64,000 nt of DNA, taken from NCBI GenBank assembly GCA_001657395.1, contig LYSY01000004.1:248001-312000 (forward strand), written 5' to 3'. Shown here one piece after another: positions 17,765-41,120 of the stretch (within the stretch, counting starts at the first letter, position 1; each line of letters opens with the position of its first letter). The notes below the pieces were generated by a model, which saw only the letters and a program-made list of their open reading frames with translations, was not told the origin of the DNA and made no database searches. The position numbers were made by a program, and so were the translations under genes. Source of the DNA: Rhodospirillales bacterium BBD 1991-14. Lineage in GTDB: Bacteria > Pseudomonadota > Alphaproteobacteria > Kiloniellales > Kiloniellaceae.

Positions 17765-17907
17765 TTTCGTCTCCGGGCTAACGCTGGACAAACAAATGCC
17801 GATGCAACGGAGTGTAACGCCGCGCTTCCGCATGTCGCATTAAGCCAGGAAACCCGGCATTTTCAAGGATAGCGTTACTCAGCGATATTCTGAGTTACAG
17901 GAGAATA

Positions 17908-25304: not shown

Positions 25305-26459
25305 TCATCCCGCGCTTTGCGGGCGGGCCTGCGGCCGGTCTTCCGCCAGCCTTGTCTCACCCGTCGGGTAACCGTCCCTGGCGAGCCGTTTGAGCGCCTC
25401 CAGGGACATATCGTCGAGCGCCAGCGCCTCGAGCAGCCGGTTCTCGTGGAAGAAATCGCGTCCGTAGAGCGCGGAAAAAATCTCGATCCCCGCACGGTGC
25501 AGGGTGGCCGGGCGGCCTGCCAGTTCGCCGAGCTTGACGGTCATCAGGAGGCCGTAGGGCGCGTCCTCGGTCACGTAGCGGCTGTCCGCCGTCGCCGGGC
25601 CGGTGCCGCCGCGGCCCTCGCGGTGCATCTCCTGGTTCATCGCCGAGACACTGTCCAGGGGCACGTGGAAGGAGAGGTGGAAGTGCTCGAAGATGGTGCG
25701 CACGGAAAGGCCGAGCGCCTCGCAGATCGCCAGGCGCTCGCGGTCCAGCGCCTCCAGCAGGCGCCCGACGTTGGGTGTCACGTTGAGGCCCTGGCCCCAG
25801 GCTTCGCCGTGTTCCATGCGCGTCATGTTGCAGAGTGCGATGCCCATGTGGTTCTGCGGGTTGAGGTTGCTGAGGGTGATGGCCAGCAGGCCGTCGCGTT
25901 CGACGAAGCGGTCGCCGAACAGCGCCTGGCAGCAGGCCAGTCCCTCCGCGCTCAAGGATTCCGGCAGGGTGCAGATGTCGACCTTGCTGCGGATCGTGTT
26001 GACCTGCGCTTCCACCAGGCTCGGCTGCCGGCCCGAGGTGACGGTAGTGCCCCAGGCGACGATGGGCAGCACAAGCCCGCGTGCGGCCAGCAGCCTGGAG
26101 AGATAGAGCGCGCCGAGGGAGGCGTGGGAGGAAATCAGAACCGTCTGACCGGCGCGCAGATGGGGCGCCAGGGCATCGAACACGGCCTTGTGTCCATAGC
26201 CGGGCAGGGCGATCAGGATCACCTCCGCCTTGTCGGCGAGATCGGCGGCGGAGGCCGCGACGCGGGGATGGAACGCGCCTTCGACCGCGCCCGTGGCTGC
26301 CAGCGCCTCGCCGGCCGCCAGGCGCTCGGTGCGCGCGCCAGAAGGGGACCAGAGCGCTGCCTTGTGGCCGCTCTGTTCCAGCAGGGCGGCGGCACCGAAG
26401 GCGATGGCACCGGCGCCGGCGATGCCGACGGAGAGACTGTGCGGCGCTTCGGCCATCAC
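25305..26459 (-). CDS. Opine/octopine-dehydrogenase family oxidoreductase
   Basis: 384 aa. The N-terminal Rossmann fold has GIAGAGAIAFGAAALLEQSG (GxGxxA/G type). The octopine dehydrogenase C-terminal domain contains SNLNPQNHMGIALCNMTRME, the helix HFHLSFHVPLDSVSAMNQEM and a TEDAPYGLLMTVKLGELAGR stretch; His in NPQNH and Asp nearby fit the family's catalytic region. These enzymes reductively condense, or oxidatively split, an amino acid and a keto acid. Start and stop overlap the peroxidase-like gene (ATGA). In this import operon, degradation of an opine-like substrate is plausible. Confidence 0.8.
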   Translation of the reverse strand: MMAEAPHSLSVGIAGAGAIAFGAAALLEQSGHKAALWSPSGARTERLAAGEALAATGAVEGAFHPRVAASAADLADKAEVILIALPGYGHKAVFDALAPHLRAGQTVLISSHASLGALYLSRLLAARGLVLPIVAWGTTVTSGRQPSLVEAQVNTIRSKVDICTLPESLSAEGLACCQALFGDRFVERDGLLAITLSNLNPQNHMGIALCNMTRMEHGEAWGQGLNVTPNVGRLLEALDRERLAICEALGLSVRTIFEHFHLSFHVPLDSVSAMNQEMHREGRGGTGPATADSRYVTEDAPYGLLMTVKLGELAGRPATLHRAGIEIFSALYGRDFFHENRLLEALALDDMSLEALKRLARDGYPTGETRLAEDRPQARPQSAG

Positions 26460-27079
26460 GCCTCCCCTGCCTGTTTGGTGACGGGTTGCGTGGCCACCGG
26501 GTCGCCCAGCAGGTGCATCAACCGGTTGGCCCAGCCGAAGAGGGCGGTGGAGAGAACGAGGTCGAGGATCTCGGCCTCCTCCAGGCCGGCCTCGCGCAGC
26601 GCCAAAACATCGGCCTCTGTCGCTTCGCTGGGGGTCTTGGAGAGCTTCACGGCGAAGGCGAAGATGGCCGCTTCGCGCGGCGGCAGCGACGCAGCCTCAC
26701 CGGCAGCGAAGATCTGCTCCATCTGCCGGGAGTCCTTGGTCAACTGGTTGTAGCGGCTGGCGTGGACGGCGGCGCAGTAGACGCAGCGATTGACGACGGA
26801 GGCGCCGACGGCGCCCAGCTCCCGCCCGGTTCGGCCAAGACCGCCGCGGTTGTACATGATGGCGTTGAACAAGGGCGTGCGCGCTTTCAGCGTCTCCACG
26901 TCGTTGGCCAGCACCAGCACGTAGTCGGAGACCTTGGTGTTGGAAGGCGTGACCTTCAGGGCGTCGCGCTGCGCCGGCGTCGCCTCGGCAAGGTCGATGG
27001 GCTGCACGCGGGGGCGCCACTGCGGCACCTTCACGGTGAAGTCATGAATCACCTCGGGGTCTGAGAGCGCCGTGCTCAT
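26456..27079 (-). CDS. Peroxidase-related / alkylhydroperoxidase AhpD-like protein
   Basis: 207 aa. The CMD-like core includes FNAIMYNRGGLGRTGRELGA and VNRCVYCAAVHASRYNQL (CxxC plus His, the AhpD redox site). The C-terminus has LREAGLEEAEILDLVLSTAL. The pattern agrees with what I recall as the Avi_7169 family. Overlaps both neighbours by ATGA. Likely role: peroxide or quinone-type chemistry supporting the flavoprotein in the operon, but this is inference. Confidence 0.75.
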   Translation of the reverse strand: MSTALSDPEVIHDFTVKVPQWRPRVQPIDLAEATPAQRDALKVTPSNTKVSDYVLVLANDVETLKARTPLFNAIMYNRGGLGRTGRELGAVGASVVNRCVYCAAVHASRYNQLTKDSRQMEQIFAAGEAASLPPREAAIFAFAVKLSKTPSEATEADVLALREAGLEEAEILDLVLSTALFGWANRLMHLLGDPVATQPVTKQAGEA

Positions 27080-27618
27080 GCCGTTGCCTGCATCAGCTTC
27101 AGCCCGGCGACGACGCGGAGCTGGTAGGCGAGGAAGGCCGTCAGTTCGGCCAGGCGGACGATGTCGGCGTCGGTGATACCGGCGGCCTTCAGGGCTTCGA
27201 TATCGTCCGCCGTCGCATCCTTGGGCGACAGCGAGGCGAGGTCCGTATAGGCGCTAAAAGCGGCGAGGCGGGCATCGGCGAAGTCCTGCGTGGCAGGATC
27301 GGCGAGAGCCACCAACGCGCCGTCGGCGCCGGCCGCCTTCAGCAGACCGCTGTAGTGGTCGGCCAGGGACTCTTCTTCGTGCAGAAGGGTGGCCCGCAGC
27401 GCCAGAGCGGCGCGCAGAGCGTGGGAGAGGCCGCCCGGCTCCTCCGGAACGAGGGCGGCATCGTGCGCCTGCTGGGTCATCGCCAGGATGTCGGCACGGC
27501 CCTCCAGGGCCGCCTGCAGCGGGCTGTCGGGCGGCAGGGCTGCCGCATGCCGCACCACGTCGGTCTGCTCCGGCGTTTCTGCCGTTGTGGAGTCTGCCGT
27601 CTTGGATTCTGGCGCCAT
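27076..27618 (-). CDS. CMD-domain protein (Avi_7170-like)
   Basis: 180 aa. An acidic N-terminus (residues 1-35) is followed by a CMD-type helical domain with GGLSHALRAALALRATLLHE, LADHYSGLLKAAGAD and ALKAAGITDADIVRLAELTA. The catalytic CxxC of AhpD is not seen, so it is probably a non-redox partner of the adjacent peroxidase-like protein. From memory, such pairs co-occur with ABC importers and flavin monooxygenases. It is 3 bp downstream of the flavoprotein gene and overlaps the next gene. Confidence 0.7.
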   Translation of the reverse strand: MAPESKTADSTTAETPEQTDVVRHAAALPPDSPLQAALEGRADILAMTQQAHDAALVPEEPGGLSHALRAALALRATLLHEEESLADHYSGLLKAAGADGALVALADPATQDFADARLAAFSAYTDLASLSPKDATADDIEALKAAGITDADIVRLAELTAFLAYQLRVVAGLKLMQATA

Positions 27619-27621
27619 GGA

Positions 27622-29127
27622 TCAGCCCCCCACCTTGCTGAGGGGCGCCACGGCTTCGGTGTCGATTTCGCTGGCGGTCCACTCGTCGCCCTGAAGCTCC
27701 GGCTTGTCGTAGTCGATCATGCCCTGGAAGTAGGCGGCGACATCTTCCTGGTAGAGGGTTGCGGCCATCTCGCGCGCCAGCCACGAAGCGCCCTCGCTGA
27801 TCCCCGGGATGTCGCCGCTGACCTTGCCGAGGCTGGCGGAGGCGCCGTAGTTGAAGCAGTAGATGTGCTTCAGCCAGGGCGCTTCACCGGTCTTGCGCTC
27901 GCGGAAGGTGAAGTCCGTATTGAGGTAGGGGAACCTGGCGAGATCGTCGTTCTGCTCGTTGGCCGGCGGTGTGTAGCGGTCGCGCCAGAGCTCGATCTTG
28001 TCGGCGTAGCCGTCAAGCTCTGTGCGGGCCATGGGGTCGGTGGTGAAGCCGGTGGCGAGTATCATGTAGTCGGTCGCCAGGCGCAGGCCGTCGACCGTGT
28101 CGATCACCAGCTCTCCGCCGTCGGGCCGCACCCCTGCGATCCCCTTCCCGAAGTGGAAATAGACGTTCTCGTTGCGGCTGGCCCGCAAGGTGGAGCCGCG
28201 CGGCGCCGGTGTCTGGGTGGCGAAGGAGTACTGCATGAAGCGCCAGCGCCATTCGTCCGGCAGGTCCGCGAAGCCGGCGGTGAAGCCGAAGGAGCCAATG
28301 CCCATCATCTTGTTGACGGTCGGCATTTCGCGGCGGCGGATCAGGTGACGCACTTCCTTGGCGCCGTGCTCTGCGGCCTCGGCGGCATTCTCAACGGCGG
28401 AGGCGCCGGCGCCGATCACGACAACGCGCTTGCCTTTCAACGCGGCGAAGTCGATGTCCTCGGAGGTGTGTGCCCAGTGGCTGCGCGGCAGGTCGCCGAT
28501 GAAGGCGGGGATCTGCGGGTGCCCGGTGCCCTCGCGGCCGGTGGCCATGATGCACTTGCGGGTCAGAAGGCTTTGCTCCGCCGCGGCGCCGGCCAGTTCG
28601 AGGCGCAGGTAGTCGCCCTCCGGCAGGATGCGCTTCACTTCCACACCGTTCTCGACCGGGATGTCCAGCACCTTGCGGTACCACTTCAGATAGTCCATCC
28701 ACATCGGACGGGGGATCTTGTCCAGTTCCTCCCAGGCGGCCTCGCCGTACTGCGCGGTGTACCAGGCGCGGAAGGTGAGGGCGCCGTAGCCATAGGCCGG
28801 GCCGGTGAGCTGCTTGGGCGAGCGCAGGGTCTCCATGCGGGCATAGGTCATCCAGGGGCCTTCCAGACCCTCGGGGCTGCGGTCGAGAATGCGGATGTTG
28901 CGCATGCCGCCGCTGGTCAGCGCGAACCAGACGAGCTGCCCGCACATGCCGCCGCCGATGATGACGGCATCCAGCACGCGCTGCCCGTTATGGTCATGCG
29001 GCAGCACCCAGTTCTCCGGCGGACGGCAGAGATACTGCTGGTCCTGGCGGACCCGCGCCTCAAGCGCGGCCAGGGATCCTGCCGCACCCTCTTCTGCTTT
29101 CCCCTCTTTCTGCATCTGCGGTCCCAT
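27622..29127 (-). CDS. FMO-like FAD/NAD(P)-binding monooxygenase
   Basis: 501 aa. First dinucleotide fold DAVIIGGGMCGQLVWFAL (GGGMCG, about residues 53-70). A second Rossmann motif RVVVIGAGASAVENAAEAAE at about 233-253. ATG motifs IMATGREGTG and MILATGFTTD are typical of flavin-containing monooxygenases and their relatives. The C-terminal part includes KHIYCFNYGASASLGKVSGD. It probably hydroxylates or oxidises the imported compound. It is first in the eight-gene operon that ends with the PotA-like ATPase, with only 48 bp to the MFS gene upstream. Confidence 0.85.
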   Translation of the reverse strand: MGPQMQKEGKAEEGAAGSLAALEARVRQDQQYLCRPPENWVLPHDHNGQRVLDAVIIGGGMCGQLVWFALTSGGMRNIRILDRSPEGLEGPWMTYARMETLRSPKQLTGPAYGYGALTFRAWYTAQYGEAAWEELDKIPRPMWMDYLKWYRKVLDIPVENGVEVKRILPEGDYLRLELAGAAAEQSLLTRKCIMATGREGTGHPQIPAFIGDLPRSHWAHTSEDIDFAALKGKRVVVIGAGASAVENAAEAAEHGAKEVRHLIRRREMPTVNKMMGIGSFGFTAGFADLPDEWRWRFMQYSFATQTPAPRGSTLRASRNENVYFHFGKGIAGVRPDGGELVIDTVDGLRLATDYMILATGFTTDPMARTELDGYADKIELWRDRYTPPANEQNDDLARFPYLNTDFTFRERKTGEAPWLKHIYCFNYGASASLGKVSGDIPGISEGASWLAREMAATLYQEDVAAYFQGMIDYDKPELQGDEWTASEIDTEAVAPLSKVGG

Positions 29128-29175
29128 CTCCTAAGGCTCTGGGTATCGGCTGGTGTCCGGTTTCACCGGCTTTTC

Positions 29176-30546
29176 CTACATCGACCAGACCGGATGGTGA
29201 TCGTCGATCAAGTACACATGGCGATGGCCGTGGCTGGCATGGCGGTGCGGATGGCTGTGGGGTTCCGGCCCCTCCCAACCCTCGTGGTCGTGCTGGTGAT
29301 GCTCGTCGTGGACGTGCATGTGCTCGTGGTCCAAGGCGGGGTGGACATGGTAGCGCTCGGCCTCGTCCGTCGCCGGCCAGAGCATCCAGGCCGCGCCGGC
29401 CGCCGCCAGCGCGCCGCAGGCCATGACCACGAAAGACAGCTCCAGGCCCAGGCGCAGCCCCAGCCAGCCGGCCAGCGGGTAGGTGATGAGCCAGCCGGCA
29501 TGGGACAGGGAGAATTGTGTGGCGAAGAGCGCAGGCCGGTCCGCGGGGCGGGCCGAGCGCTTCAGCAGCAGACCAGCGGGGGTCATCACCGATGCGGTCG
29601 CGGCGCCGAGGGCAAACCACATCATCAGGCTGGCCGTAAAGCCGGGCGCCGTGAGGATCGCCAGAGGGGCCAGCCCCAGCAGCAGACCGCCGCCGACCAT
29701 GACAACGCGGGGGGCGAGCCGGTGCAGCACGCGCGGCAGGCTGAGGGCGACCAGCATCGACCCGGCACCGAAGGCCATCAGCAGCGCGGTATAGCTGCGG
29801 TCGCTGCCGCCCAGGGTCTCGTGGGCGTAGACCACTGAATTCACCAGCACCCAGGCGCCACTGCAGGCGACGGTAAGGCTGAGCGCAAAGAGCGCCCGCA
29901 GGCGCGGCGTGCGGCCATAGATGGCAAAGCCCTTGGTCAGCCGCTGCCGGAACGACTCTTCGCTCAGGGCGCGCGAGCGCTCGGGCAGCCGCGCCAACAC
30001 CACCAGGGCGGCGGAACCGGCGAGCCCCAGTGCCGTACCGAAGAACAGCAGCCCGGGATCGATCACAGTCAGAAGCAGGCCGACCAGGAGCGGGCTCAAC
30101 AGCGTCTCCACATCGTAGGCAAAGCGGGAGAGAGAAAGCGCCGCGGTATAATCCTCCTCCTCCGGCAGAACCTCGGGGATCAGGCTCTGGAAGGCCGGCG
30201 TGAAAGCCGCAGAGCAGAGCTGGATCACGAAGACGACAAGGTAGATCTGCCAGACCTGATCGATGAACGGCAGGGCCAGAACAAGGGCCACGCGCAGCAG
30301 GTCGAGCGCGACCAGCAGAGGCTTGATGGGCAGGCGCTGAACCAGCGCGCTGGCCAGGGGCGCAAAGCCCACATAGGCGATCATCTTCAGCGCCAGGATC
30401 GTGCCGACGACAATCCCGGCACTGGCGCCGGAAAGATCGTAGGCGAGGATCGCCAGGGCCAGAGTCATGAGGCCCGTGCCAACGAGGGAAAGGACCTGGG
30501 CGGAGAACAACCGCCGATAGGTCTTGTGGCGCAGAATTGCTAGCAT
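29176..30546 (-). CDS. MFS exporter with His-rich cytoplasmic tail (NreB-like)
   Basis: 456 aa with 12 predicted TM segments, beginning MLAILRHKTYRRLFSAQVLS. The final 60 residues are extraordinarily His-rich (DHEHMHVHDEHHQHDHEG, then PHSHPHRHASHGHRH) and end VWSM. His-rich C-termini on MFS proteins are known from the nickel-resistance exporter NreB, so Ni/Co/Zn export is the best guess. No metal-responsive regulator is adjacent. It lies between the flavoprotein operon and the HisD-like gene, on the same strand; a shared transcript is possible. Confidence 0.75.
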   Translation of the reverse strand: MLAILRHKTYRRLFSAQVLSLVGTGLMTLALAILAYDLSGASAGIVVGTILALKMIAYVGFAPLASALVQRLPIKPLLVALDLLRVALVLALPFIDQVWQIYLVVFVIQLCSAAFTPAFQSLIPEVLPEEEDYTAALSLSRFAYDVETLLSPLLVGLLLTVIDPGLLFFGTALGLAGSAALVVLARLPERSRALSEESFRQRLTKGFAIYGRTPRLRALFALSLTVACSGAWVLVNSVVYAHETLGGSDRSYTALLMAFGAGSMLVALSLPRVLHRLAPRVVMVGGGLLLGLAPLAILTAPGFTASLMMWFALGAATASVMTPAGLLLKRSARPADRPALFATQFSLSHAGWLITYPLAGWLGLRLGLELSFVVMACGALAAAGAAWMLWPATDEAERYHVHPALDHEHMHVHDEHHQHDHEGWEGPEPHSHPHRHASHGHRHVYLIDDHHPVWSM

Positions 30547-30635: not shown

Positions 30636-31973
30636 TCAGGTCGACCGACCCGCGGCGAAGGCCTGGCTGCGCATCTCGGACAGCGCGTTTCCGTGCGCAT
30701 CGAAGCCTTCGTAGCGGGCAAACTTGAGTGCATAGGGTGCGAGTTGGTCGTAGCCCTTCTTTGTGACGTGGCCGACGGAGATCCGCTTGGTGAAGTCGAA
30801 GACGCTGAGCGGCGAACAGGTGCGCGCGGCGGCGTTGGTCGGCAGCACGGCGTTGGGGCCGAGCACGAAGTTGCCGATGGAGACCGGCGTGTGTTCGCCC
30901 ATCAGGATCTCGCCAGCGTTGCGGATCATGCCGAGGTACTGGTGCGGGTCCTTGGCCTGGATCTCCAGGTGCTCCGGCGCATAGTCGTTCACGAAAGCAA
31001 TTGCGTCGTCCATGGTCTCCGCCAGGACGATGCCGCCGCGCGGTCCGCAGAGCACGTCGGAGGAGAAGCCGACCCGCTGCTCCCCCATCTCCTGCCAGAA
31101 GTCCGGAATCGCGGCTCGCGCCGCCTCCGCCACCGCGGCGGAATCCGTCACCAGATAGGCGGAACTGTCGGAGCCGTGTTCCGCCTCGATCAACAGGTCG
31201 AGCGCGCAGACCCGGCCGTTGGCGGTGCTGTCGGCCAGGATGATGGCCTCGCTGGGCCCCGCGGGAACGCCGGGGTCGATCCGCCCGGCAAGCAGGCGCT
31301 TGGCGGCCACCACCCAGGGGCTCCCGGGGCCGACGATTTTCAGGCAGCGCGGCACGGTTTCGGTGCCGAAGGCCACCGCCGCCACCCCCTGGGCGCCGCC
31401 GCATTTGTAGACGCGCTCGATTCCCGCCAGGCGTGCGGTGACGAGGGTGGCGGCGTCGACCTTGCCGTCGGGGCCGGGCGGCGTGATGATCACCGCCTCC
31501 GGCACGCCGGCCACCACCGCCGGAATGGCGGTCATCATCACTACGCTGGGAAAGGCGCCTTTGCCGCGAGGCACGTAGCAGGCGACGCTGTCGATAGGGA
31601 CGATGCGGTCGCCGGCGAAGACGCCCGGATGCATCTCCTTCATCCACATCTCTTCGGGCATCTGTGCCTCGTGAAAGCGGCGCACGTTGTCGCATGCGAA
31701 GGTGAGCACCTCGATCATGTCCGGATCGAGCGCGTCGAAGGCTTCGTCGAAGTCACGCGCGCTGGCGGCGATGGCATCGGGCGCCACCGGGCTGTTGTCG
31801 AATTCCTGCGCGAAGCGGGCGAGGGCGGCGTCGCCCTCGGCCTCGACCGCGGCGATGATCGGCCCGACTTTCTCGAGATAGGGATCGAGGTTGCCCTCCG
31901 TGCGCTGCAGCAGCGCGGCGCGCGCTTCGGCGGTGAGGTCGGAGAGCTTGTGAAAACTGATATCTCTGGGCAA
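30636..31973 (-). CDS. HisD-superfamily dehydrogenase with altered metal/substrate site
   Basis: 445 aa, the length of HisD. Family blocks include DSVACYVPRGKGAFPSVVMM, YKCGGAQGVAAVAFGTETVP, KIVGPGSPWVVAAKRL and YAPEHLEI (general base Glu-His pair kept). Compared with E. coli HisD, the zinc-ligand Gln of SQAEH is Glu (IEAEH), the ligand Asp of the GDY segment is Asn (SIGNF) and the substrate His of TNHVLPT is Ala (GPNAVLPT); the distal His (FDAH) is kept. So it is not biosynthetic HisD, and it also differs from HpsN as I remember it. The ABC genes beside it suggest catabolism of an imported alcohol or aldehyde. Confidence 0.8.
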   Translation of the reverse strand: MPRDISFHKLSDLTAEARAALLQRTEGNLDPYLEKVGPIIAAVEAEGDAALARFAQEFDNSPVAPDAIAASARDFDEAFDALDPDMIEVLTFACDNVRRFHEAQMPEEMWMKEMHPGVFAGDRIVPIDSVACYVPRGKGAFPSVVMMTAIPAVVAGVPEAVIITPPGPDGKVDAATLVTARLAGIERVYKCGGAQGVAAVAFGTETVPRCLKIVGPGSPWVVAAKRLLAGRIDPGVPAGPSEAIILADSTANGRVCALDLLIEAEHGSDSSAYLVTDSAAVAEAARAAIPDFWQEMGEQRVGFSSDVLCGPRGGIVLAETMDDAIAFVNDYAPEHLEIQAKDPHQYLGMIRNAGEILMGEHTPVSIGNFVLGPNAVLPTNAAARTCSPLSVFDFTKRISVGHVTKKGYDQLAPYALKFARYEGFDAHGNALSEMRSQAFAAGRST

Positions 31974-31990: not shown

Positions 31991-32791
31991 TCACTTTGAG
32001 CGCAGGAAAATCTCGAGCCCGACGAGGCGGTCCAGCAGCCAGACCGCCAGCACGGCGATCAGGATATAGACGACGGAGACCGCCGCGAGGTCGGGGGTGA
32101 TGACGCTGCGGATGGAATTGTAGATCTGCACCGGCAGGGTGACGATCCGCGAGTCGACGAGGAAGAGGCTGACCAGGAACTCGTTGAAGGCGAGGATGAA
32201 CATCAGCAGGGCGCCGGTGATCACCCCGGGCATGACGGCCGGCAGCGTGACGGTGAAGAAGACCACCACCGGGGGCGCGCCGCAGTTGGCCGCCGCGTTC
32301 TCCAGTTCGGCATCCAGGGCGTTGGCCGAGGCGCTGACCGCCCAGATCATGAAGGGCAGGTTGATGACGCAGAGCGCCACGCCGACCGGCCAGAGCGAGC
32401 CCAGGATGCGAAGCTCGCCGAAGAAGATCAGCATGCCGAGGCCGGAGACCACCAGCGGGATGGTGAAAGGCAGCAGCAGGTAGACCTGGAGGCTGCGGCG
32501 GAAGCGGATGCGGTAGCGCAGGATGCCGAGGGCCGCCAGGGTGCCGGCGGGGATCGACACCAGGGTGCAGACGATGGAGACATAGAAGGTGCGCAGGAGC
32601 GCGTCCTTGAAGCTGTCGAGCTGCCAGAGCCGCTCGTACCAGCGGAGGGAGAAGCCCTCCGGCGGAAAGCGGATGATGTCGCCCGATGTGAAGGAGGCGC
32701 CGATGATGATCAGAGTCGGAAAGCTCAAAAGGATAAGGCTGAAGACCGTCAGCCCCCAGAGTACCGCCGCCTTGGAGAACCCTCCGCTCAT
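31991..32791 (-). CDS. ABC transporter permease, PotC type (second system)
   Basis: 266 aa with six TM segments (FSLILLSFPTLIIIGASF is the first) and the EAA-type loop ALDAELENAAANCGAPPVVV with FFTVTLPAVMPGV after it. Start overlaps the upstream permease stop by ATGA. Together with 32788-36053 it forms the second spermidine/putrescine-type importer. Confidence 0.88.
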   Translation of the reverse strand: MSGGFSKAAVLWGLTVFSLILLSFPTLIIIGASFTSGDIIRFPPEGFSLRWYERLWQLDSFKDALLRTFYVSIVCTLVSIPAGTLAALGILRYRIRFRRSLQVYLLLPFTIPLVVSGLGMLIFFGELRILGSLWPVGVALCVINLPFMIWAVSASANALDAELENAAANCGAPPVVVFFTVTLPAVMPGVITGALLMFILAFNEFLVSLFLVDSRIVTLPVQIYNSIRSVITPDLAAVSVVYILIAVLAVWLLDRLVGLEIFLRSK

Positions 32792-33735
32792 GACTTCCGC
32801 TCCGCGAAGCCCAGCGTGCCGGTGCCGGCGATCATCAGCATCAGGGCGACCAGCGCGCTGCCCACCAGGGTCAGCACGATGGAGAGCGCCGAGCCGAGCC
32901 CGATGTTGGAGATCTGGAAGTAGCTGTCGTAGATCGCATTGGCGATGAAGTCGGAGGTGCCGCCGCCGAGAATCTCCGGCATGGCGAAGTCCGTCAGGGT
33001 CAGGGTGAAGACGACGATGCCGGCGCCGATGATCCCGGGCTTGGCCATGGGTATGACCACATGGCGGAAGGTGCCGATCCAGGTGGCGCCCAGGCTTTCG
33101 GAGGCCAGTTCGATGTCTTCGCCGATCGCGGCCACGGCGGGCGTGAGCAGCAGCACGGCGAAGGGCAGCATGTACTGCACCAGGCCCAGGATCACCGCCG
33201 GATAGTTGTAGATCAGGTCCAAAGGCGGCAGGCCGATGCCGGTGACGATGCTGTTCAGCAGTCCTTCCTTGCCGAGAATGATCAGCCAGCCGTAAGCGCG
33301 CACCACCTGGCCGATGAAAAACGGCAGAAAGAGCGCCACCAGAAGAAACTTACGCGTCGCGGCGGAGGCGGTGCGGACCATCAGGTAGGCGTAGGGGAAT
33401 GCCAGAACGAGGGTGATCAGGGTGACGATGGCGGCGGCCAGCAGGCTGCGCCAGAGCACGCGGAGATAGACGGGCCGCTCGAAGAAGGTCTGATAGTTGG
33501 TGAGGCTGTAGGCCTCTTTCAGGCGATAGGTGGCGAGGTCCAGCTCATGCAGACTGAACTCGAGCATGTAGCCGAGGCCGATCACCAGAATGAAGACCAG
33601 TGCGACCGCGGGGAGCAGGAAGAGATAGCCGTTCATGCCATGCAGGCCGCGCGGCCAGGCGGCGGCGACCAGGCGGTCGACACCGTCGATCAGGCGCCAT
33701 GACAGCGGTTTGCCACCCGCGGCGGTCTCGGCCAT
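32788..33735 (-). CDS. ABC transporter permease, PotB type (second system)
   Basis: 315 aa from ATG 33735 (MAETAAGGKPLSW). Six TM segments, the first GYLFLLPAVALVFILVIGLG, then the long periplasmic loop with YSLTNYQTFFERPVYLRVLW. EAA loop IELASESLGATWIGTFRHVV. The gap to the upstream binding-protein gene holds a long hairpin. Confidence 0.88.
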   Translation of the reverse strand: MAETAAGGKPLSWRLIDGVDRLVAAAWPRGLHGMNGYLFLLPAVALVFILVIGLGYMLEFSLHELDLATYRLKEAYSLTNYQTFFERPVYLRVLWRSLLAAAIVTLITLVLAFPYAYLMVRTASAATRKFLLVALFLPFFIGQVVRAYGWLIILGKEGLLNSIVTGIGLPPLDLIYNYPAVILGLVQYMLPFAVLLLTPAVAAIGEDIELASESLGATWIGTFRHVVIPMAKPGIIGAGIVVFTLTLTDFAMPEILGGGTSDFIANAIYDSYFQISNIGLGSALSIVLTLVGSALVALMLMIAGTGTLGFAERKS

Positions 33736-33762
33736 TTCTCGCTCTGCTCTCCCCGGAGGTTT

Positions 33763-33800
33763 GCGCGACCGGCGCGGGACGGAGTCCCGGCCGATCGCGC
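33763..33800 (-). terminator. Intra-operon hairpin after binding-protein gene (second system)
   Basis: GCGCGACCGG pairs with CCGATCGCGC (one mismatch), with an inner GGGAC/GTCCC stem. It sits 9 bp after the binding-protein stop codon (33809) and before the permease start. Same position as hairpins at 24096, 55969 and 62543. Confidence 0.65.
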
Positions 33801-33808
33801 CATAGGCG

Positions 33809-34912
33809 TCAGCCCTGCATGATCTCGCTGAACTTGGAGAACCAGATGGGCTGGTTCTCCACCAGGACCGGCGAGGGCACGCTGACAAGCTTCTCGAAGT
33901 CGGCTGGAGCCGTCGGATAGGACGGATCGCCGGCCAGGTCGGCCGGCGGTTCCAGGCCCGGATAGACCGGCGGCAGGCCCAACAGCGAACACCACTTCTC
34001 CTGCGCTTCGCGGGTGATCGCGAATTCGATGAAGCGCTTGGACCAGTACTCTTCGTTTGCCGGCAGGCCTTTGGGAATCCACAGCCCGTCGGTGTCGACC
34101 TTGCAGCCTTCCTTGGGCACGGTCCACTCGACGTTGATGCCCTTCTGCTTGGCCGCGCGGGCGTTCACCGAGATGGTGCAGGCAACGTCGATCTCACCGT
34201 TCTGGAACCAGGTGGTGAAGTCGGCATCCTCGCCCAGCAGCGGCTCGTTCTTCTTGAGGTCGCGGTAGAACTGATAGCCCGGCTCCATGTTGTCGGGAAT
34301 GTCCGCGGCGGTGCCTCCGCCGGCGATGACGGCGATGGGGTTGAAGCCGATGCCGTCGTCGTAGAGGGCCACGCGGCCCTTGAACTTCGGATCCAGCATC
34401 ACACGCCAGGACTCCGGCGGGCCGTCCGGAAAGGCTTCCGGCCGGTAGGCGCAGACATAGACGTATGAGTAGGTGTTGACCAGCGGCCAGCCGTCGATAC
34501 CGGTCGGCTTGGCGATGGACAGCAGGCCGTCCAGACCCTTGAGGTCGCCGAGATCGACGGTGACGCCGCGCAGCGCCGAGATGGTGGCGTTGGTCGTCGT
34601 GTCCCAGTTGACGTGGATCGGCGGCACGCGGCCCTGATCGACGGCAGCCCAGATCTTGGGCTTGATCTCGTTGTCCTCCGTGAAGTCGAGCCTGACCGGA
34701 ATGCCGGTCGCCTCGGTGAAGGGGTCGGCAACGCCGGCCTGCAGGGATTCGCCCCAGGCGCCGCCCCAGGCGCGAACGATGAGTTCGCCGGGCTTTTTCG
34801 TGTGGCCGTCCGCGAATGCGAACTGCGGCAACGCCAGGGCGCCGGTGGCAAGGGCCGAGCCCTTGAGAAAGCGCCGGCGGTTCAGCCTGAATGGGTCACG
34901 GTTATCCGACAT
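33809..34912 (-). CDS. ABC transporter substrate-binding protein, Tat-exported (second system)
   Basis: 367 aa from ATG 34912. Tat signal NRRRFLKGSALATGALALPQ. Mature sequence starts near ELIVRAWGGAWGESLQAGVA, a PotD-type fold with WDTTTNATISALRGVTVDLG and GFNPIAVIAGGG; ends WFSKFSEIMQG. The substrate is unknown. The HisD-like gene in the same operon hints at an alcohol-bearing compound. Confidence 0.88.
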   Translation of the reverse strand: MSDNRDPFRLNRRRFLKGSALATGALALPQFAFADGHTKKPGELIVRAWGGAWGESLQAGVADPFTEATGIPVRLDFTEDNEIKPKIWAAVDQGRVPPIHVNWDTTTNATISALRGVTVDLGDLKGLDGLLSIAKPTGIDGWPLVNTYSYVYVCAYRPEAFPDGPPESWRVMLDPKFKGRVALYDDGIGFNPIAVIAGGGTAADIPDNMEPGYQFYRDLKKNEPLLGEDADFTTWFQNGEIDVACTISVNARAAKQKGINVEWTVPKEGCKVDTDGLWIPKGLPANEEYWSKRFIEFAITREAQEKWCSLLGLPPVYPGLEPPADLAGDPSYPTAPADFEKLVSVPSPVLVENQPIWFSKFSEIMQG

Positions 34913-34958
34913 GAGAGCCTCCTTCTTCTTGTTCACTCCGTTTTGGTTGACCAGGCGA

Positions 34959-36053
34959 TCAGGGTCGATCGCTGGGAAAGGCAAAGAAATCGCGGGCGTT
35001 CCAGCCGAGCTTCACCTGGCTCTGCGGTCTGTGCTCGGCGTGGTGCAGGGGGTCGTGGTCGAAGGCGAAGAGCACCGCATCGGCCAGGGCCGGCACGGAG
35101 ATCTCGTAGACCATGCGGTCGCCTTCGAAGATCCGCTGGCGCACCTCCCCGGTTACCACGTTCTCGAAGGCGGTTGCATCGCCGTTCGGAGCGTCGCCGA
35201 GGATGCGCACCTGTTCGGCCCGGAGCGCACAGTCGACCGTGGTGCCCATGCCCAGCGCTCCCTGCGCGCGGGCCTTCAGCGCGGTATCACCGACGCGCAC
35301 CAGGATGCCGCCGTCGCCGCTGGCCTCCACCGCCCCTGTGAACATGGCGGTGAGGCCGATGAAATTGGCGACGAAGCGGTTGGAGGGTGCGCGGTAGACC
35401 GCCTCCGGGCTGTCGGACTGCTGAATGCGGCCCTCGCTCATCACCACGATCTGGTCCGACATCACAAGCGCTTCGCGCTGGTCGTGGGTGACGTTGATGG
35501 TGGTGACGCCGAGTTCCTGCTGGATGCGGCGGAACTCCAGCTGCATCTCCTCGCGCAGTTTCTTGTCGAGTGCGGAAAGCGGCTCGTCGAGCAGCAGCAG
35601 GTCGGGGCGGAAGGACAGCGCCCGGGCGATGGCAACGCGTTGCTGCTGGCCGCCGCTGAGTTCCTGCGGGCGGCGCTTCTCGAAGCCGTCCAGCCGCACC
35701 AGCCGGAGGTATTCGGACACACGGTCGGGAATCGTCGCCGGATCGAAGCCGCGCATCTTCAGCGGGTAGGCGACGTTCTGTGCCGCGGTCATATGGGGAA
35801 ACAGCGCGAGGCGCTGAAAGACCATGCCGATGGAACGGCGGTAGGGCGGCACGTTGTCGACGGCGGCGCCGTTGATCAGGATTTCGCCGGCGTTCGGCCG
35901 GATGAATCCGGCGATCATGCGCAGCAGCGTGGTCTTGCCGCAGCCGCTCGGCCCGAGGATGGTGAGGAACTCGCCTTTGGGCAGCGTCAGGGAAGCGTCG
36001 TCGACGGCAAGGACGTCACCGAAGGTTTTCGAGACGTCACGGATCTCGACCAT
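34959..36053 (-). CDS. ABC transporter ATP-binding protein, PotA type (second system)
   Basis: 364 aa from ATG 36053 (an upstream GTG at 36071 is possible). Walker A GPSGCGKTT (about 34-42), Q-loop QRLALFPHM, signature LSGGQQQRVAIARAL, Walker B LLLLDEPLSALDKK, H-loop VTHDQREAL. C-terminal TOBE domain from about residue 245, with VEASGDGGILVRVGDTA. First gene of the operon 36053 to 30636; a TTGTATATACAA-type operator lies about 90 bp upstream. Confidence 0.9.
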   Translation of the reverse strand: MVEIRDVSKTFGDVLAVDDASLTLPKGEFLTILGPSGCGKTTLLRMIAGFIRPNAGEILINGAAVDNVPPYRRSIGMVFQRLALFPHMTAAQNVAYPLKMRGFDPATIPDRVSEYLRLVRLDGFEKRRPQELSGGQQQRVAIARALSFRPDLLLLDEPLSALDKKLREEMQLEFRRIQQELGVTTINVTHDQREALVMSDQIVVMSEGRIQQSDSPEAVYRAPSNRFVANFIGLTAMFTGAVEASGDGGILVRVGDTALKARAQGALGMGTTVDCALRAEQVRILGDAPNGDATAFENVVTGEVRQRIFEGDRMVYEISVPALADAVLFAFDHDPLHHAEHRPQSQVKLGWNARDFFAFPSDRP

Positions 36054-36143
36054 GCAGGCTTGTGCGGCCACTTCCCTGCCTTCCAGAAGCTCACTTTTTC
36101 GCGAGAGGCAAAACCGTTGCAGCCACCCCTTCGGCTGTCAAGT

Positions 36144-36302: not shown

Positions 36303-37067
36303 TCAGATCGACGCCAGATAGCCGCCGTCGACGAAGACCAGTTGTCCGGTGACGTAGGCCGAGGCCGGCGAAGTCAGGAAAACGCAGGCGCCCACCAGGT
36401 CGTCCAGCTCGCCGAAGCGCCCCATGGGGATCTTCGCCAGCATGGCCGTGCGCCAGCCATCGTCCTGATAAAACACCTCCGTGAGCTCGGTGCGGAAGTA
36501 GCCGGGGCCGATGCCGTTGACGCGGATACCCTTGGGCGACCACTCGCTGCTGAGGGCCCGGGTCATGCCCAGCAGCCCGGTCTTCGAAGCGGTGTAGGGC
36601 ACGGCGGTCGGGACGCCGACGGCCGAGGTGAGCGAACAGGTGTTGACGATGGCGCCCGGAAGGCCGGCCGTCAGCAGGCGCTCCGCGAAGTGCCGCGCGA
36701 CAAAGAAGGCGCCCTTCAGATTGGTGTCGAGGATGCGGTCCCAGAGTGCCTCGTCGACATCGACGGAGGCCCGCACCTCTTCCATGCCGGCGTTGTTGAT
36801 CAGGACATCGGCCCGCAGGCCGGCGTCATCCATGTGCCCGAAGAGTGCGCCGATGCTTTCGGGGTCCGAGACATCCGCCGTGAAGACATGCGCCTGGCGG
36901 CCGTAGGCGCGTACCGCAGCGGCTGTGTCCTGCAAGGCCTCTTCCGAGCGGGCGGCAAGGATCAGGTCGGCACCGGCTTCCGCCAGGCCAGCGGCCAGGG
37001 CCCGGCCGATACCGCGGCTGGCCCCGGTGACCAGGGCTGTGCGGCCCTCAAGGCTGAACAAAGACAT
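36303..37067 (-). CDS. SDR-family dehydrogenase (gluconate 5-dehydrogenase-like)
   Basis: 254 aa from ATG 37067. Cofactor motif TGASRGIGRA (about 15-24), NNAG at about 91-94, catalytic Ser in NTCSLTSAVG, and Tyr/Lys in VPYTASKTG. Acidic-to-Arg sequence around ARSEE suggests NADP preference. It could interconvert a sugar acid or polyol. It is convergent with nothing; 86 bp separate it from the LacI gene on the same strand, so it is probably cotranscribed downstream of LacI. Confidence 0.85.
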   Translation of the reverse strand: MSLFSLEGRTALVTGASRGIGRALAAGLAEAGADLILAARSEEALQDTAAAVRAYGRQAHVFTADVSDPESIGALFGHMDDAGLRADVLINNAGMEEVRASVDVDEALWDRILDTNLKGAFFVARHFAERLLTAGLPGAIVNTCSLTSAVGVPTAVPYTASKTGLLGMTRALSSEWSPKGIRVNGIGPGYFRTELTEVFYQDDGWRTAMLAKIPMGRFGELDDLVGACVFLTSPASAYVTGQLVFVDGGYLASI

Positions 37068-37152
37068 TGCGCATCTGCTCCCCAGCTCCCCGTCCACGCA
37101 CTTCAGGCCGCGATCATAGCCGCTGGGGTGATGCAGGCCAGCCTTTCTCCGG

Positions 37153-38208
37153 CTAGAGACCGGCGGCGGCCAGCGATGCCGGCGCGGGGCCGGTGGACTC
37201 GCGGACGATCAGGGAGGTCTCGATCTCCACCGCCCGCGGTGTGTCCTCGCCGCCGAGACGCGCAAGGAGCATATCGGCGGCGCGGCACCACATCTCCTGC
37301 GTCGGGACGCGGATGGTGGTGAGCGAGGGCTTCAGGTGTCGGGAGAGCACGAGGTCGTCGAAGCCGACCACGGAGACCTGCTCGGGGATGCGAACGCCGC
37401 TGTGCTGGGCTTCCAGGATCGCGCCGAAGCCCTGCACGTCGTTGCCGCAGATGATCGCCGTCGGCGGCTCCGCCAGCGACATCAGGTCGCGAAAGGCGGC
37501 GCGGCTTTCGGCAATGTCATAGCGGCGCTCCAGCACCCGGTCGTCCGGGAGGGTCAGGCCGGCATTGGCCAGCTCCGCGCGCACGCCGCGGACGCGTCCG
37601 ATGGCACGGTCGTTGTCGGCGGTGATGCCGGCGATCATGGCGAATCGCCGGTGGCCGAGTTGCAGCAGGTAGCGCACCGCCTTGGTCGCAACGCCGGCAT
37701 TGTCGAAGCCCACGCAATGATAGGGCCGCTCGGGCGAGTAGACGCCGGTGTTGACGAAGGGCGTGCCGTGGCGTGCCAGCACGGCGAGGCAGTCGCGGGT
37801 ATGGGTCTCGCCCATCATGATGATCCCGGCTGCCCTCTGCTCCAGGAAGCTGCGGACGACCTGGTGCTCTTCTTCCGGGTCGTAGTTGCTCGATCCGATC
37901 AGCAGATGGTAGCCGCGGTCGTTCAGGTGGGCCTGCAGGGCCTCCACGCCGGCGGCGAAGATCGAGTTGTCGATGGAGGGGATGATGGCCCCGATAATGC
38001 GGCTGGAGCGGCTCGACAGCGAGCGGGCGGCGCCGTGGGGGATATAGCCCAGGGTGGCGATCGCCTCCTCGACGGCGCGGCGGGTTTCCGGTTTCACGTA
38101 GTCCGCCTTGTTCAGAACCCGCGAAACGGTGGCGGTCGAGACCTGTGCCGCCGCCGCCACCTCGGCAACGCTCACGCGCGCCCCGCGGTTCTGTAATCGT
38201 TTACGCAT
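37153..38208 (-). CDS. LacI/GalR-family regulator of the sugar-catabolic locus
   Basis: 351 aa. The N-terminal HTH and hinge include VSVAEVAAAAQVSTATVSRV and GYIPHGAARSLSSRSSRIIG. The periplasmic-binding-like domain follows, with HHLLIGSSNYDPEEEH-type motifs, NTGVYSPERPYHCVGFDNAG and VSVVGFDDLVLSRHLKPSLT. It is divergent from the SDR/TRAP operon. One LacI-like palindrome overlaps its own start codon and a second lies upstream of the SDR gene, so it probably controls itself and the catabolic operon. Confidence 0.88.
   Translation of the reverse strand: MRKRLQNRGARVSVAEVAAAAQVSTATVSRVLNKADYVKPETRRAVEEAIATLGYIPHGAARSLSSRSSRIIGAIIPSIDNSIFAAGVEALQAHLNDRGYHLLIGSSNYDPEEEHQVVRSFLEQRAAGIIMMGETHTRDCLAVLARHGTPFVNTGVYSPERPYHCVGFDNAGVATKAVRYLLQLGHRRFAMIAGITADNDRAIGRVRGVRAELANAGLTLPDDRVLERRYDIAESRAAFRDLMSLAEPPTAIICGNDVQGFGAILEAQHSGVRIPEQVSVVGFDDLVLSRHLKPSLTTIRVPTQEMWCRAADMLLARLGGEDTPRAVEIETSLIVRESTGPAPASLAAAGL
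38192..38205. promoter_or_regulatory. LacI-type operator overlapping the regulator start codon
   Basis: The plus-strand TGTAATCGTTTACG (minus strand CGTAAACGATTACA) matches the TGTAAACG-TTTACA style of LacI operators. It covers codons 2-5 of the LacI gene, consistent with autoregulation by a roadblock. Partly constrained by coding, so moderate confidence. Confidence 0.5.
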
Positions 38209-38294
38209 ATCGATCCGAAGTTCAGGCCGCGATCTGAAAACATACCGTGAAAGTCGAGTTTACAGGCAAATTCCTGCTTGCGGCAAGGCCGGTC

Positions 38295-38314
38295 TTATGT
38301 AAAGGCTTACATAA
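38295..38314. promoter_or_regulatory. Inverted-repeat operator upstream of the catabolic operon
   Basis: TTATGTAA-AGGC-TTACATAA: perfect 8-bp half-sites with 4-bp spacing, about 58 bp upstream of the SDR start at 38373. It shares the GTAA/TTAC core with the site at 38192-38205. Probable binding site of the divergent LacI protein. Confidence 0.65.
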
Positions 38315-38372
38315 AGGGCGGCGGCATTTGTACACGAAGCGTCTTGCAGCAGGCGCCAGGGGGTGTGCCTCG

Positions 38373-39089
38373 ATGGCCGGATTGGAAGGGACCATAGCGA
38401 TTACCGGGGCCGCCGGGGGCATCGGCCAGGCGCTCTGCACACTGCTGTCCGAAGCGGGCTGCCGTCTCCATCTGATCGACCGGGAGGACTGCGGCCTGCA
38501 GGACCTCGCCGGGCGGTTGGGGGCAACCGCCGGCGTCCAGACGACGGACGACGCTGCGGGCGCGCGGGCTGCACTGGCGGCCGCCGAAGGGCCACTCCAC
38601 GGTTTCGTCCATCTCGCCGGCTCCATGGAGGACGACCCCGACCTGGGCGACGACCCGGCGGTGTGGGACCGCACCATGACCAATAACCTGCGCAATGCCT
38701 ACGATTTTGCCACGGCTGTTGAAGAACGACTGCCGGAGGGAACCATGGGACGCCTGGTTTTCACCTCCTCCCTCGCGTTTCGCCGCGGTGCGGTGGATGC
38801 GGTGGCCTACTCCGCCGCCAAGGCGGGGCTGGTGGGCATCACCCGGGCGCTGGCCCGCCGGTTCAAGACGCGGGCCACGGTCAACGCCATTGCTCCCGGC
38901 ATCATTCTCACCCGCATGCCGGAAAAGGTGATTGAGCGCCGCGGGGACCTTCTCCTGAAGGAAATCCCGCTCGGCCGCTTCGGAGCACCACGGGAGGTTG
39001 CAACCGTGATACGGTTTCTGCTGAGCGAAGACGCCAGCTACATCACCGGCCAATGCATCAACGTCGACGGCGGCCAGGTGATGAACTGA
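38373..39089 (+). CDS. SDR-family oxidoreductase, first gene of the TRAP operon
   Basis: 238 aa from ATG 38373; the frame is open upstream to 38247 but that part contains the operator. Motifs: TGAAGGIGQA (about 11-20), VHLAGS in the NNAG position, catalytic Ser in VFTSSLAFR and Tyr/Lys in VAYSAAKAGL, then INVDGGQVMN at the end. The NNAG Asn is replaced (VHLAGS), which is unusual but tolerated in the superfamily. Followed after 48 bp by the TRAP genes. It may oxidise a hydroxyl of the imported substrate. Confidence 0.82.
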   Translation: MAGLEGTIAITGAAGGIGQALCTLLSEAGCRLHLIDREDCGLQDLAGRLGATAGVQTTDDAAGARAALAAAEGPLHGFVHLAGSMEDDPDLGDDPAVWDRTMTNNLRNAYDFATAVEERLPEGTMGRLVFTSSLAFRRGAVDAVAYSAAKAGLVGITRALARRFKTRATVNAIAPGIILTRMPEKVIERRGDLLLKEIPLGRFGAPREVATVIRFLLSEDASYITGQCINVDGGQVMN

Positions 39090-39137
39090 ACGGCTAGGGG
39101 TGCCGCGCCGGGAGAAGCGCGGGCCGGGAGGAAGTGA

Positions 39138-39770
39138 ATGGTTGTCATGCTGTCTCGTGCGATCGCCCTGCTGCGCCTCATAAACCGCGGCTTTGAAGCG
39201 ATGCTGCGCCCGATCATCATCGTCACCGTGATCGCCATGCTGGCCACCGTCGTCTGGACGGTGGTGGCGCGTCTGTCCGGAATCAGCGCGCCCTGGACGG
39301 AAAAGGTGATGCTGATCCTGCTGCCGACCCTGGCTTTTATCGTGGCGCCGATCGCTTATCGCCGCGCGTCCAACGTGGCGCTCGACATGCTGCACGACGT
39401 GCTGCCGCACTTTCTCCAGCGGGTGCATTCGCTGCTGCTCCACGTGCTCATCCTCGGTCTCCTGTTAATCGCCCTCGATCTGACCCTGCGCAAGATCGGC
39501 CTGAAGTGGGACGGCCTGACCCTCGTTCTCGACGGCATCTTCGGCCTCGACCTCAACTCCATCCGGCCCTTCAAGGCCAAGATGCGTATCCCCGTTCTGG
39601 GATTGGAGTGGCGCTATGTCTTCATGGTGATGCCGGCGGCCATCACCCTGATGATCATCGTCAATGTGGAGATGCTGCTGCGCTACACGCTGGGCCTCTT
39701 CGATCCCGACAACCGCCTCGTGCGCCCTGTGCGTTCCTTCGAGGACGTCGCGGCGAACGTGGAGGAGTAG
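39138..39770 (+). CDS. TRAP transporter small membrane subunit (DctQ type)
   Basis: 210 aa behind a GGGAGGAAG site. Four predicted TM helices: PIIIVTVIAMLATVVWTVVA, VMLILLPTLAFIVAPIAY, LLLHVLILGLLLIALDLTL and VFMVMPAAITLMIIVNVEML. There is a longer-than-usual loop between helices 3 and 4 (IGLKWDGLTLVLDGIFGLDL). It partners the DctM and DctP proteins encoded next for Na+-driven uptake of an acidic compound. Confidence 0.85.
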   Translation: MVVMLSRAIALLRLINRGFEAMLRPIIIVTVIAMLATVVWTVVARLSGISAPWTEKVMLILLPTLAFIVAPIAYRRASNVALDMLHDVLPHFLQRVHSLLLHVLILGLLLIALDLTLRKIGLKWDGLTLVLDGIFGLDLNSIRPFKAKMRIPVLGLEWRYVFMVMPAAITLMIIVNVEMLLRYTLGLFDPDNRLVRPVRSFEDVAANVEE

Positions 39771-39774
39771 GCCG

Positions 39775-41079
39775 ATGCAGACCGCTTTTCTCTGGCTCTT
39801 CCTCGCCTCGCTTGCGCTTTCGATCCCTGTGATCTTCGGCCTGCTGGGGGCCTCCGGCATCGTGGTCGCCAACGATCTGGGCGCCGAGTTCGATCCCCGC
39901 GATCTCAACTCCCTGCTCAGCCAGGTCTTCTCCGGCATGTCGTCGGTGCCGCTGATGGCGCTGCCGATGTTCATCCTGGCCGGCGAACTGATGAACGCCG
40001 GCGGCATCACCGAACGCCTGGTGCGCTTCAGCCAGTCACTGATCGGCCATCTGCGCGGCGGTCTCGCGCAGGTGAACATCCTGAGTTCGATCCTCTTTGC
40101 CGGGCTCTCCGGTTCGGCGGTGGCCGACACCTCGGCGCTGGGCTCCATGCTGATCCCGGCGATGGAAAAGCAGGGCTACACCCGGCGCTTCGCGGCAGCC
40201 GTGACGGCGGCCTCCAGCGTCATCGGGCCGATCATTCCGCCGTCGGGCATCATGATCATCTACGCCTTCATTATGGGCGTGAGCCCTGCCGCCCTCTTCG
40301 CCGGGGGCATCGTTCCCGGGCTGATGATCGGCAGCGGGCTGATGTTCGTCACCTGGCGCCTGGCCAAGAAGTACGACTTCCCGGTTGCCAGCCGCCGCGC
40401 TTCGGCCCGCGAGGTCGTGGCCGCGGGGCGCGAGACCTTCTGGCCGTTGCTGACGCCGATCATCCTGTTGGGCGGCATCCTGACCGGCTTCTTCACGCCG
40501 ACGGAAGCCGCGGGGGTCGCCGCCTTCTACGCGCTGGTCGTTTCGGTCTTTGTGATCCGCGCGCTCAGGATCGGCGACCTGCCGGCGACCTTCTACCGCG
40601 CCGCTGTGGCCTCGGGCATCATCCTCATGCTGATCGGTGCCTCGAAGTCGTTCTCCTGGGTCGCCGATCAGGTTGGCGCGGCGCAGATGCTGGCCGACTT
40701 CGTGCTGTCGCTGACCGACAACCCCTATCTGCTGCTGATCCTGCTCAACCTGATGCTCTTCGTCGTCGGCATGTTCCTCGATGCCGGCCCGGCGATCCTG
40801 ATCCTGGGCCCGATCCTGTCAAAGGTCTTCGTCGGGATCATCGGCCTCGACCCCGTCCACTTCGCCATCATCATGTGCGTCAACGTGACAGTCGGCCTGG
40901 CGACGCCACCCATGGGGCTTGTGCTTTTCGTCGCGTCGTCGATTTCACGCGAGCGCGTCGAGGCGATCACCAAGGCGATTCTGCCGTTCCTGGCCGTCGA
41001 GGCCGGCGTGATCTTCTTGATCACCTTTTTCGAGGACCTGGTGCTGTTCCTGCCCCGTGTGATGGGGCTTCATTCGTGA
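39775..41079 (+). CDS. TRAP transporter large permease (DctM type)
   Basis: 434 aa from ATG 39775, 4 bp after the DctQ stop. About 12 TM segments; family motifs SGSAVADTSALGSMLIPAME, SVIGPIIPPSGIMIIYAF and the C-terminal VGLATPPMGLVLFVASSISR are all present and typical of DctM. It forms the transport channel. Substrates of the family are mostly carboxylates and sulfonates. Confidence 0.92.
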   Translation: MQTAFLWLFLASLALSIPVIFGLLGASGIVVANDLGAEFDPRDLNSLLSQVFSGMSSVPLMALPMFILAGELMNAGGITERLVRFSQSLIGHLRGGLAQVNILSSILFAGLSGSAVADTSALGSMLIPAMEKQGYTRRFAAAVTAASSVIGPIIPPSGIMIIYAFIMGVSPAALFAGGIVPGLMIGSGLMFVTWRLAKKYDFPVASRRASAREVVAAGRETFWPLLTPIILLGGILTGFFTPTEAAGVAAFYALVVSVFVIRALRIGDLPATFYRAAVASGIILMLIGASKSFSWVADQVGAAQMLADFVLSLTDNPYLLLILLNLMLFVVGMFLDAGPAILILGPILSKVFVGIIGLDPVHFAIIMCVNVTVGLATPPMGLVLFVASSISRERVEAITKAILPFLAVEAGVIFLITFFEDLVLFLPRVMGLHS

Positions 41080-41120
41080 GACATCCAAAGCCGAAGAATA
41101 ACGCGAACTAGGAGGAAAGA

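Follow-up and report, generated by a model that had tools for sequence, protein, structure and literature searches.

The analysed stretch of DNA (the window, 64,000 nucleotides) carried on its minus strand a HisD-family dehydrogenase gene at 30636-31973, identified from its open reading frame, profile matches, alignment and a tree. It belonged to a group marked by Glu263 and Asn368, hereafter the clade. The gene encoded 445 amino acids from a TTG start, with GGAG a few nucleotides 5' of the TTG, which lay 17 nt past the stop codon of the upstream permease gene. The profile search gave a full-length PF00815 match of 464.1 bits (cut-off 27), and TIGR00069 was matched at 444 bits against a cut-off of 243.8. 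The top solved match of a structure model (pLDDT 91.2) was HisD, with a Z score of 42.5 over 374 residues at 1.8 Å. As the earlier note had stated, the gene lay in an operon with an ABC importer. The order on the minus strand was SDR, PotA-like ATPase, PotD-type binding protein, two permeases and, last, the HisD-like gene. The importer consisted of a PotA-like ATPase (34959-36071; TIGR01187 368.9 bits, cut-off 355.6), a PotD-type periplasmic solute-binding protein (33809-34984; profile match), a PotB-like permease (32788-33888; open reading frame list and profile match) and a PotC-like permease (31991-32791; profile match and homologues in clade loci). The listed TTG start of the PotB-like permease was probably too far upstream, because its reading frame overlapped that of the binding protein. 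The solved relatives closest to the PotD-type protein were agropine- and mannopine-binding proteins, which were matched weakly (39.5 and 36.2 bits).

The short-chain dehydrogenase (SDR; 36303-37097, minus strand, profile match) was KduD/gluconate 5-dehydrogenase-like and proved to be a conserved partner, with a relative of at least 45% identity in 68 of 91 clade loci. A LacI-family regulator (37153-38208, minus strand, profile match) stood at the head of the cluster, and of the 20 HpsN-type control loci, 11 had a homologue of it (44-46% identity) nearby. Many other clade operons had HutC-like regulators in contrast to LacI at the window, and an exchange of regulators is possible. The operon was limited to a core of importer, SDR and HisD-like gene. 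No kinase, MDR, 2-hydroxy-acid oxidase or HisC-like gene lay near the window gene among those examined, and the locus had no hut gene. The APH-like kinase of other clade loci, described below, was not found in the window's genome. Downstream on the same strand (25305-30546) were an MFS protein, an FMO-like FAD/NAD(P)-binding oxidoreductase, two CMD/peroxidase-related proteins and an octopine-dehydrogenase-domain protein. Two genomes alone, the window's own and that of its 98% relative, were found to have this set as a block. Opine catabolism, hinted at by the opine-dehydrogenase-like gene, was set aside because such genes were found in just these two genomes, yet the closest solved relatives of the binding protein were opine binders. 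A TRAP-importer operon on the plus strand (38247-42170; divergent SDR, DctQ, DctM and DctP) adjoined the ABC operon, and a phage-type integrase with an Arm-DNA-binding domain was located at 16517-17833 on the minus strand.

Residue numbering was compared by alignment to E. coli HisD from MG1655. The catalytic Glu326-His327 pair of HisD was present as E334-H335, and H262, E414 and H419 were kept as H266, E422 and H427. However, Q259, D360, Y361 and H367 were replaced by E263, N368, F369 and A375. The zinc site of both HisD and HpsN is described as two His, one Asp and one Gln (PMC11382572). The HisD ligand set of Gln259, His262, Asp360 and His419 was not matched in the window protein, which had E263, H266, N368 and H427. 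The earlier note had reported a kept Glu-His pair and a change of the zinc-ligand Gln and Asp to Glu and Asn, and both held on the alignment. Among 175 distinct family cores, 111 had Glu and Asn, 44 were of the HisD type (Gln, Asp, Tyr, His) and 20 of the HpsN type (Gln, Asp, Lys, His), with no mixed Gln/Asn or Glu/Asp core among them. Since both residues were found in 111 of 111 clade sequences, and Gln and Asp in 64 of 64 HisD and HpsN types, Glu263 and Asn368 were not a product of chance. The exchange was reciprocal, Gln to Glu and Asp to Asn, and left the formal charge of the ligand set unchanged. The joint change of both metal ligands (111 to 0) provides a clean natural test of acid/amide swapping in a HisD-type metal site. 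In the case of the substrate His, which the earlier note had read as Ala, A375 was real in the window protein but did not define the group. Position 375 was Ala in 97 of the 111 clade sequences, His in 11, Cys in two and Asn in one. Ala375 is therefore not diagnostic of the clade, and the diagnostic pair is Glu/Asn. The H367 equivalent in HpsN by alignment offset is His359, whose contact is described as running via the backbone carbonyl (PMC11382572).

A maximum-likelihood tree was built from 54 rows of 168, namely 31 clade, seven HpsN-type and 16 HisD rows. The clade rows formed one side of a branch with support of 100/99, with the HisD rows outside, and the HpsN-type rows formed one side of another branch (100/100). 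The 16 HisD rows needed two changes and did not form one branch side; E. coli HisD was a long branch adjoining the clade, and the program warned of long branches meeting. The Glu/Asn proteins form a distinct and widespread variant within the HisD family, which agreed with the proposal of a separate HisD subfamily. An HpsN-type sulfopropanediol dehydrogenase, misread in the earlier note, would be of the same family and have a similar SDR partner. However, the HpsN motif G-R-Y-A/S-H was absent from the window protein, which had GKGAF, and His126, Asp352 and Lys353 of HpsN corresponded to Phe141, Asn368 and Phe369. His126 and Lys353 are described as additional residues of HpsN that serve the sulfonate, His126 binding both zinc and sulfonate in CpHpsN (PMC11382572). 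The two groups were also separate clades, and the genome had its own HpsN-SDR-MDR trio. The motif, the residues and the tree ruled out an HpsN identity of the window gene, to which we give next to no probability.

The window's genome had four PF00815 genes, which ruled out the window gene as its sole hisD. The separate, normal hisD that the earlier note had wanted checked was present on contig C13 (599 bits to Brucella HisD). The note was right that the window protein fits neither HisD nor HpsN; the protein belongs to a separate clade and is probably not the biosynthetic HisD of the genome. The genes on contigs C16 and C1 were of the HpsN type and matched solved HpsN at 587 and 545 bits, respectively. 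On C16 (L035:10248-13331), the HpsN-type gene was followed directly by SDR and MDR genes, an hps-like trio. The second HpsN-type gene, on C1, adjoined a LacI regulator. The genome's own hutH and hutU were on C11, a different contig from that of the window operon.

Clade members were found in Alpha-, Beta- and Gammaproteobacteria and in one Desulfobacteraceae bin. The named relative closest to the window protein was that of a Pelagibius bin (98%), and the firmicute Monoglobus had a 43% relative. Clade genes were carried on plasmids of Sinorhizobium, Rhizobium, Shinella, Klebsiella and Pantoea. For the cassette on Klebsiella plasmids (L059, L067) and a Pantoea plasmid (L058), two of the three plasmids were typed as conjugative, and one cassette was near arsenic-resistance genes. 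Two peptide patterns, VN[DAQ]YAPEH and [LC]YVPRGKG[SA], and a DNA pattern encoding YVPRGKG were used to retrieve the clade loci. In loci retrieved in this way, the YVPRGKG motif is circular; Glu263 and Asn368 were no direct target of selection, though they were in the alignment behind the choice of patterns. Of 398 genomes sampled from the phylum, 21 had the DNA pattern; one of these (G066) encoded YVPSGKG and was no clade member. The 91 clade loci were counted by locus and not by independent event, and included near-copies from Klebsiella (two), Pseudooceanicola (two) and Komagataeibacter (three). Left out of the 91 were the window itself and L148, which duplicates the Pelagibius bin locus already included as L068. 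Within the open-licence PMC papers searched, no characterisation of the Glu/Asn clade was found, and the branch is apparently uncharacterised. Nearly every annotated clade member examined was named histidinol dehydrogenase or hisD, as was the curated NCBI model. This label probably places many clade genes wrongly in biosynthesis.

We then considered the neighbours of the clade genes. The 91 loci contained an SDR in 68, an APH-like kinase in 49, an MDR in 42, a 2-hydroxy-acid oxidase of the FMN type in 25, a HisC-like aminotransferase in 24 and a HutC-like regulator in 24. HisC-like and 2-hydroxy-acid oxidase genes occurred together in 18 loci. Atypical loci without the cassette (e.g. L100, L105, L126 and L140) had no consistent partner gene. 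The APH-like kinase was a family of 430 amino acids (L062:15174-16466 and 48 other clade loci) with invariant HGD.H..N and FDPA. The members tested had no Pfam match above the gathering cut-off, and the one tested had no NCBIfam match. By sequence, the family profile gave nothing below E = 0.19 against solved structures. The kinase model (pLDDT 90.7) was closest to PsiK (8zic, Z = 21.0, 4.5 Å over 322 residues), and methylthioribose kinase (2pup) was matched at Z = 18.1.

Of the 91 clade loci, 17 had hut genes no more than about 9 kb away, compared to none of 40 control loci. The controls were 20 canonical HisD and 20 HpsN-type loci from the window's order, and not from the clade's own genomes, with similar flanks, some of them cut by contig ends. 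The other 74 clade loci had no hut gene in the stretch examined. In Komagataeibacter, hutF-hutG-MDR-SDR-HisD-like-kinase lay on one strand. In Enterobacterales, co-directional hutH-hutU-HisC-oxidase genes adjoined the cassette. Acidocella had HisD-like-HisC-SDR-kinase, then HutC-hutF and hutI-hutH-hutG, and several Rhodobacterales had blocks like those of Acidocella and Komagataeibacter. The S. meliloti aminotransferase scored 648 against a cut-off of 540 for PRK05166 (HisC), and the regulator 257.5 against the HutC cut-off of 220. A Paracoccus plasmid described as holding HUT, a HisC gene and D-lactate dehydrogenase (PMC4447125) fitted the hut link by this described content alone. Urocanase did not discriminate, as all 11 carriers of this type of operon had it, and so did all 16 relatives without the operon.

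The S. meliloti operon corresponded to SMa0387-SMa0402, with hisD2 as SMa0398; these tags were equated with the L062 operon by gene order and product names only, without comparison to the strain 1021 sequence. In a tolC mutant, SMa0387, 0391, 0392, 0394, 0396, 0398 and 0402 are reported to be down approximately 8- to 24-fold; expression of hutU, hutG, ntrB, ntrC and genes for nitrate uptake falls as well, and the authors describe the function of the SMa0387-SMa0402 transporter as unknown (PMC2912261). This expression is consistent with nitrogen scavenging. The portions available of an sRNA study (PMC8844928) and a PHB-regulator study (PMC12542648) gave no substrate for the operon.

The importers fell into two types, as 32 of the 91 loci had a PotD-type and 31 an SsuA/NMT1-type binding protein, and none had both. 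These binding proteins alone are no pointer to imidazole compounds. The enzyme might instead oxidise a polyol, amino alcohol or sulfonate that has no imidazole group, with the hut neighbours reflecting only shared nitrogen control. The agropine and mannopine binders closest to the PotD-type protein would agree with such a substrate, as would the SsuA-type proteins in the other third of the loci and the resemblance of SDR and MDR to polyol and DHPS pathway enzymes. However, the hut linkage was repeated in unrelated lineages, often in one transcription unit and with HisC-like and HutC-like genes, and for a sulfonate the residues His126, Lys353 and Asp352 of HpsN were Phe141, Phe369 and Asn368 in the window protein. 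We considered a non-imidazole substrate unlikely.

A sister case was found in the genus g130. The clade-type gene was the only PF00815 gene in seven of seven g130 genomes (84-100% complete), in which full-length hisA/hisF-type genes were present and urocanase was found in none of the seven. In the sister genus g143, a canonical gene lay in a hisD-hisB-hisH-hisA block in three of three genomes. The clade-type protein of g130 is probably a working histidinol dehydrogenase that makes histidine, because it was the only PF00815 gene alongside hisA/hisF-type genes. This case therefore indicates that the Glu/Asn site can probably do histidinol chemistry. In six of the seven g130 genomes (loci L183, L184 and L192-L200), only weak matches to the IGPD domain were seen, three as two stretches in one long frame, and none was found in the seventh; the sister genus had a canonical hisB there. 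HisB of g130 was seemingly replaced by a divergent protein. The clade-type gene of Monoglobus adjoined an IGPD gene. The role of the g130 and Monoglobus proteins need not carry over to the window protein, because their sequences were outside the operon clade in the tree.

These cases bear on another explanation, in which the window protein would be a second, scavenging HisD that converts importer-fed L-histidinol to L-histidine for nitrogen, the changed ligands being a neutral alternative metal site. It would account for the g130 genomes, with their sole PF00815 gene and no urocanase, and for the IGPD neighbour in Monoglobus. The Glu414 and His419 equivalents were kept, and the structures nearest to the model were those of HisD with bound histidinol or histidine (5vld and 5vlc, Z = 42.5; 1kae, 41.6). 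However, 2-hydroxy-acid oxidase, aminotransferase and kinase, which were frequent neighbours, would be superfluous for histidinol, and the window's genome already had a canonical HisD. We hold this explanation to be improbable.

These results suggested that the window protein may be a catabolic HisD relative that oxidises an imported imidazole alcohol and feeds it into histidine degradation, a reading to which we assign a probability of roughly 0.55. The earlier note had proposed that a different alcohol is oxidised. The neighbours did point to alcohol import and oxidation; however, a rebuilt site is compatible with a histidinol-like substrate, and the alcohol probably resembles histidinol more than the note had assumed. 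An imidazole compound related to histidinol is the most likely choice, because clade genes lay inside or beside hut operons elsewhere and the clade-type gene stood alone in g130. Overall, an imidazole-linked substrate is fairly likely. If the substrate is imidazole-linked, a route through imidazole-lactate is conceivable though still tentative, and direct conversion of histidinol to histidine is rather doubtful.

We infer the substrate and all of the reactions that follow, and the enzyme mechanism was drawn by analogy with HisD and HpsN (PMC11382572). The dedicated importer would take up a small imidazole alcohol with a histidinol-like C3 side chain, or its 2-hydroxy analogue imidazolyl-propanediol. 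Using two NAD+, the HisD-like enzyme would convert the primary alcohol into the acid. The metal would be held by Glu263, His266 and Asn368 and by His427 of the partner subunit. His335 may act as the general base that deprotonates the primary alcohol, with hydride passing to NAD+, and Glu334 may activate water for attack on the aldehyde, a second hydride transfer giving the acid. The SDR, with the MDR in many relatives, would serve for the other enantiomer or oxidation state, in the way that HpsO and HpsP handle DHPS. Should imidazole-lactate be the product, the FMN 2-hydroxy-acid oxidase and HisC-like aminotransferase of many relatives would lead through imidazolepyruvate to histidine, which HutH and HutU would then degrade. 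The simplest chain would run from imidazole diol through imidazole-lactate, imidazolepyruvate and histidine to urocanate. The kinase would have no clear step in it. As a broader and more speculative proposal, the clade may represent an undescribed peripheral branch of histidine catabolism, on chromosomes and mobile plasmids of Alpha-, Beta- and Gammaproteobacteria. In this branch, imidazole alcohols would be converted to histidine, the substrate of Hut, by the importer and the triad of SDR, MDR and Glu/Asn HisD-like enzyme, together with a 2-hydroxy-acid oxidase, a HisC-like aminotransferase and a novel family of APH-like kinases. The HisD-like member carries the reciprocal Gln/Glu and Asp/Asn exchange, which leaves the net charge of the site unchanged, and in at least one genus the biosynthetic HisD would have given way to close outgroup members with the same exchange. 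Provided that the hut linkage holds, S. meliloti offers a direct test of a nutrient path by which soil, root and marine bacteria would use imidazole alcohols.

We compared the window protein and the clade cassette with known systems. HisD of E. coli, Brucella and Medicago (TIGR00069) shares with the window protein the fold (model Z of approximately 39-42.5 to solved HisD), the catalytic Glu-His pair, the two metal His and the Glu414 and His419 equivalents, at approximately 34-41% identity. It differs in that Gln259 and Asp360 are Glu and Asn in the window protein, Tyr361 is Phe and His367 is Ala, and in that the window gene lies in an importer operon rather than a his operon, with canonical HisD elsewhere in the genome. 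The Hut pathway is linked to the clade by the position of clade genes, which in several lineages adjoin hut operons or form part of them and are accompanied by HutC-like regulators. However, no HisD-type step is named for Hut in the material available to us, and the clade enzyme would be a peripheral feeder. HpsN is likewise of the HisD family and belongs to a catabolic operon with a transporter and an SDR, joined by an MDR in many clade relatives. In contrast to HpsN, the window protein lacks G-R-Y-A/S-H, His126 and Lys353, has Glu and Asn for the Gln and Asp ligands and is only approximately 30-35% identical. In the hps operon, the SDR (HpsO), the MDR (HpsP) and HpsN are described as working on two enantiomers of one diol (PMC11131964), and the clade genes also form a trio of SDR, MDR and HisD-family enzyme. 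The window locus had an SDR and a transporter, with no MDR among the genes examined, and an MDR was present in 42 of 91 clade loci. By this analogy, the clade cassette is best read as a putative imidazole counterpart of the hps sulfonate operon.
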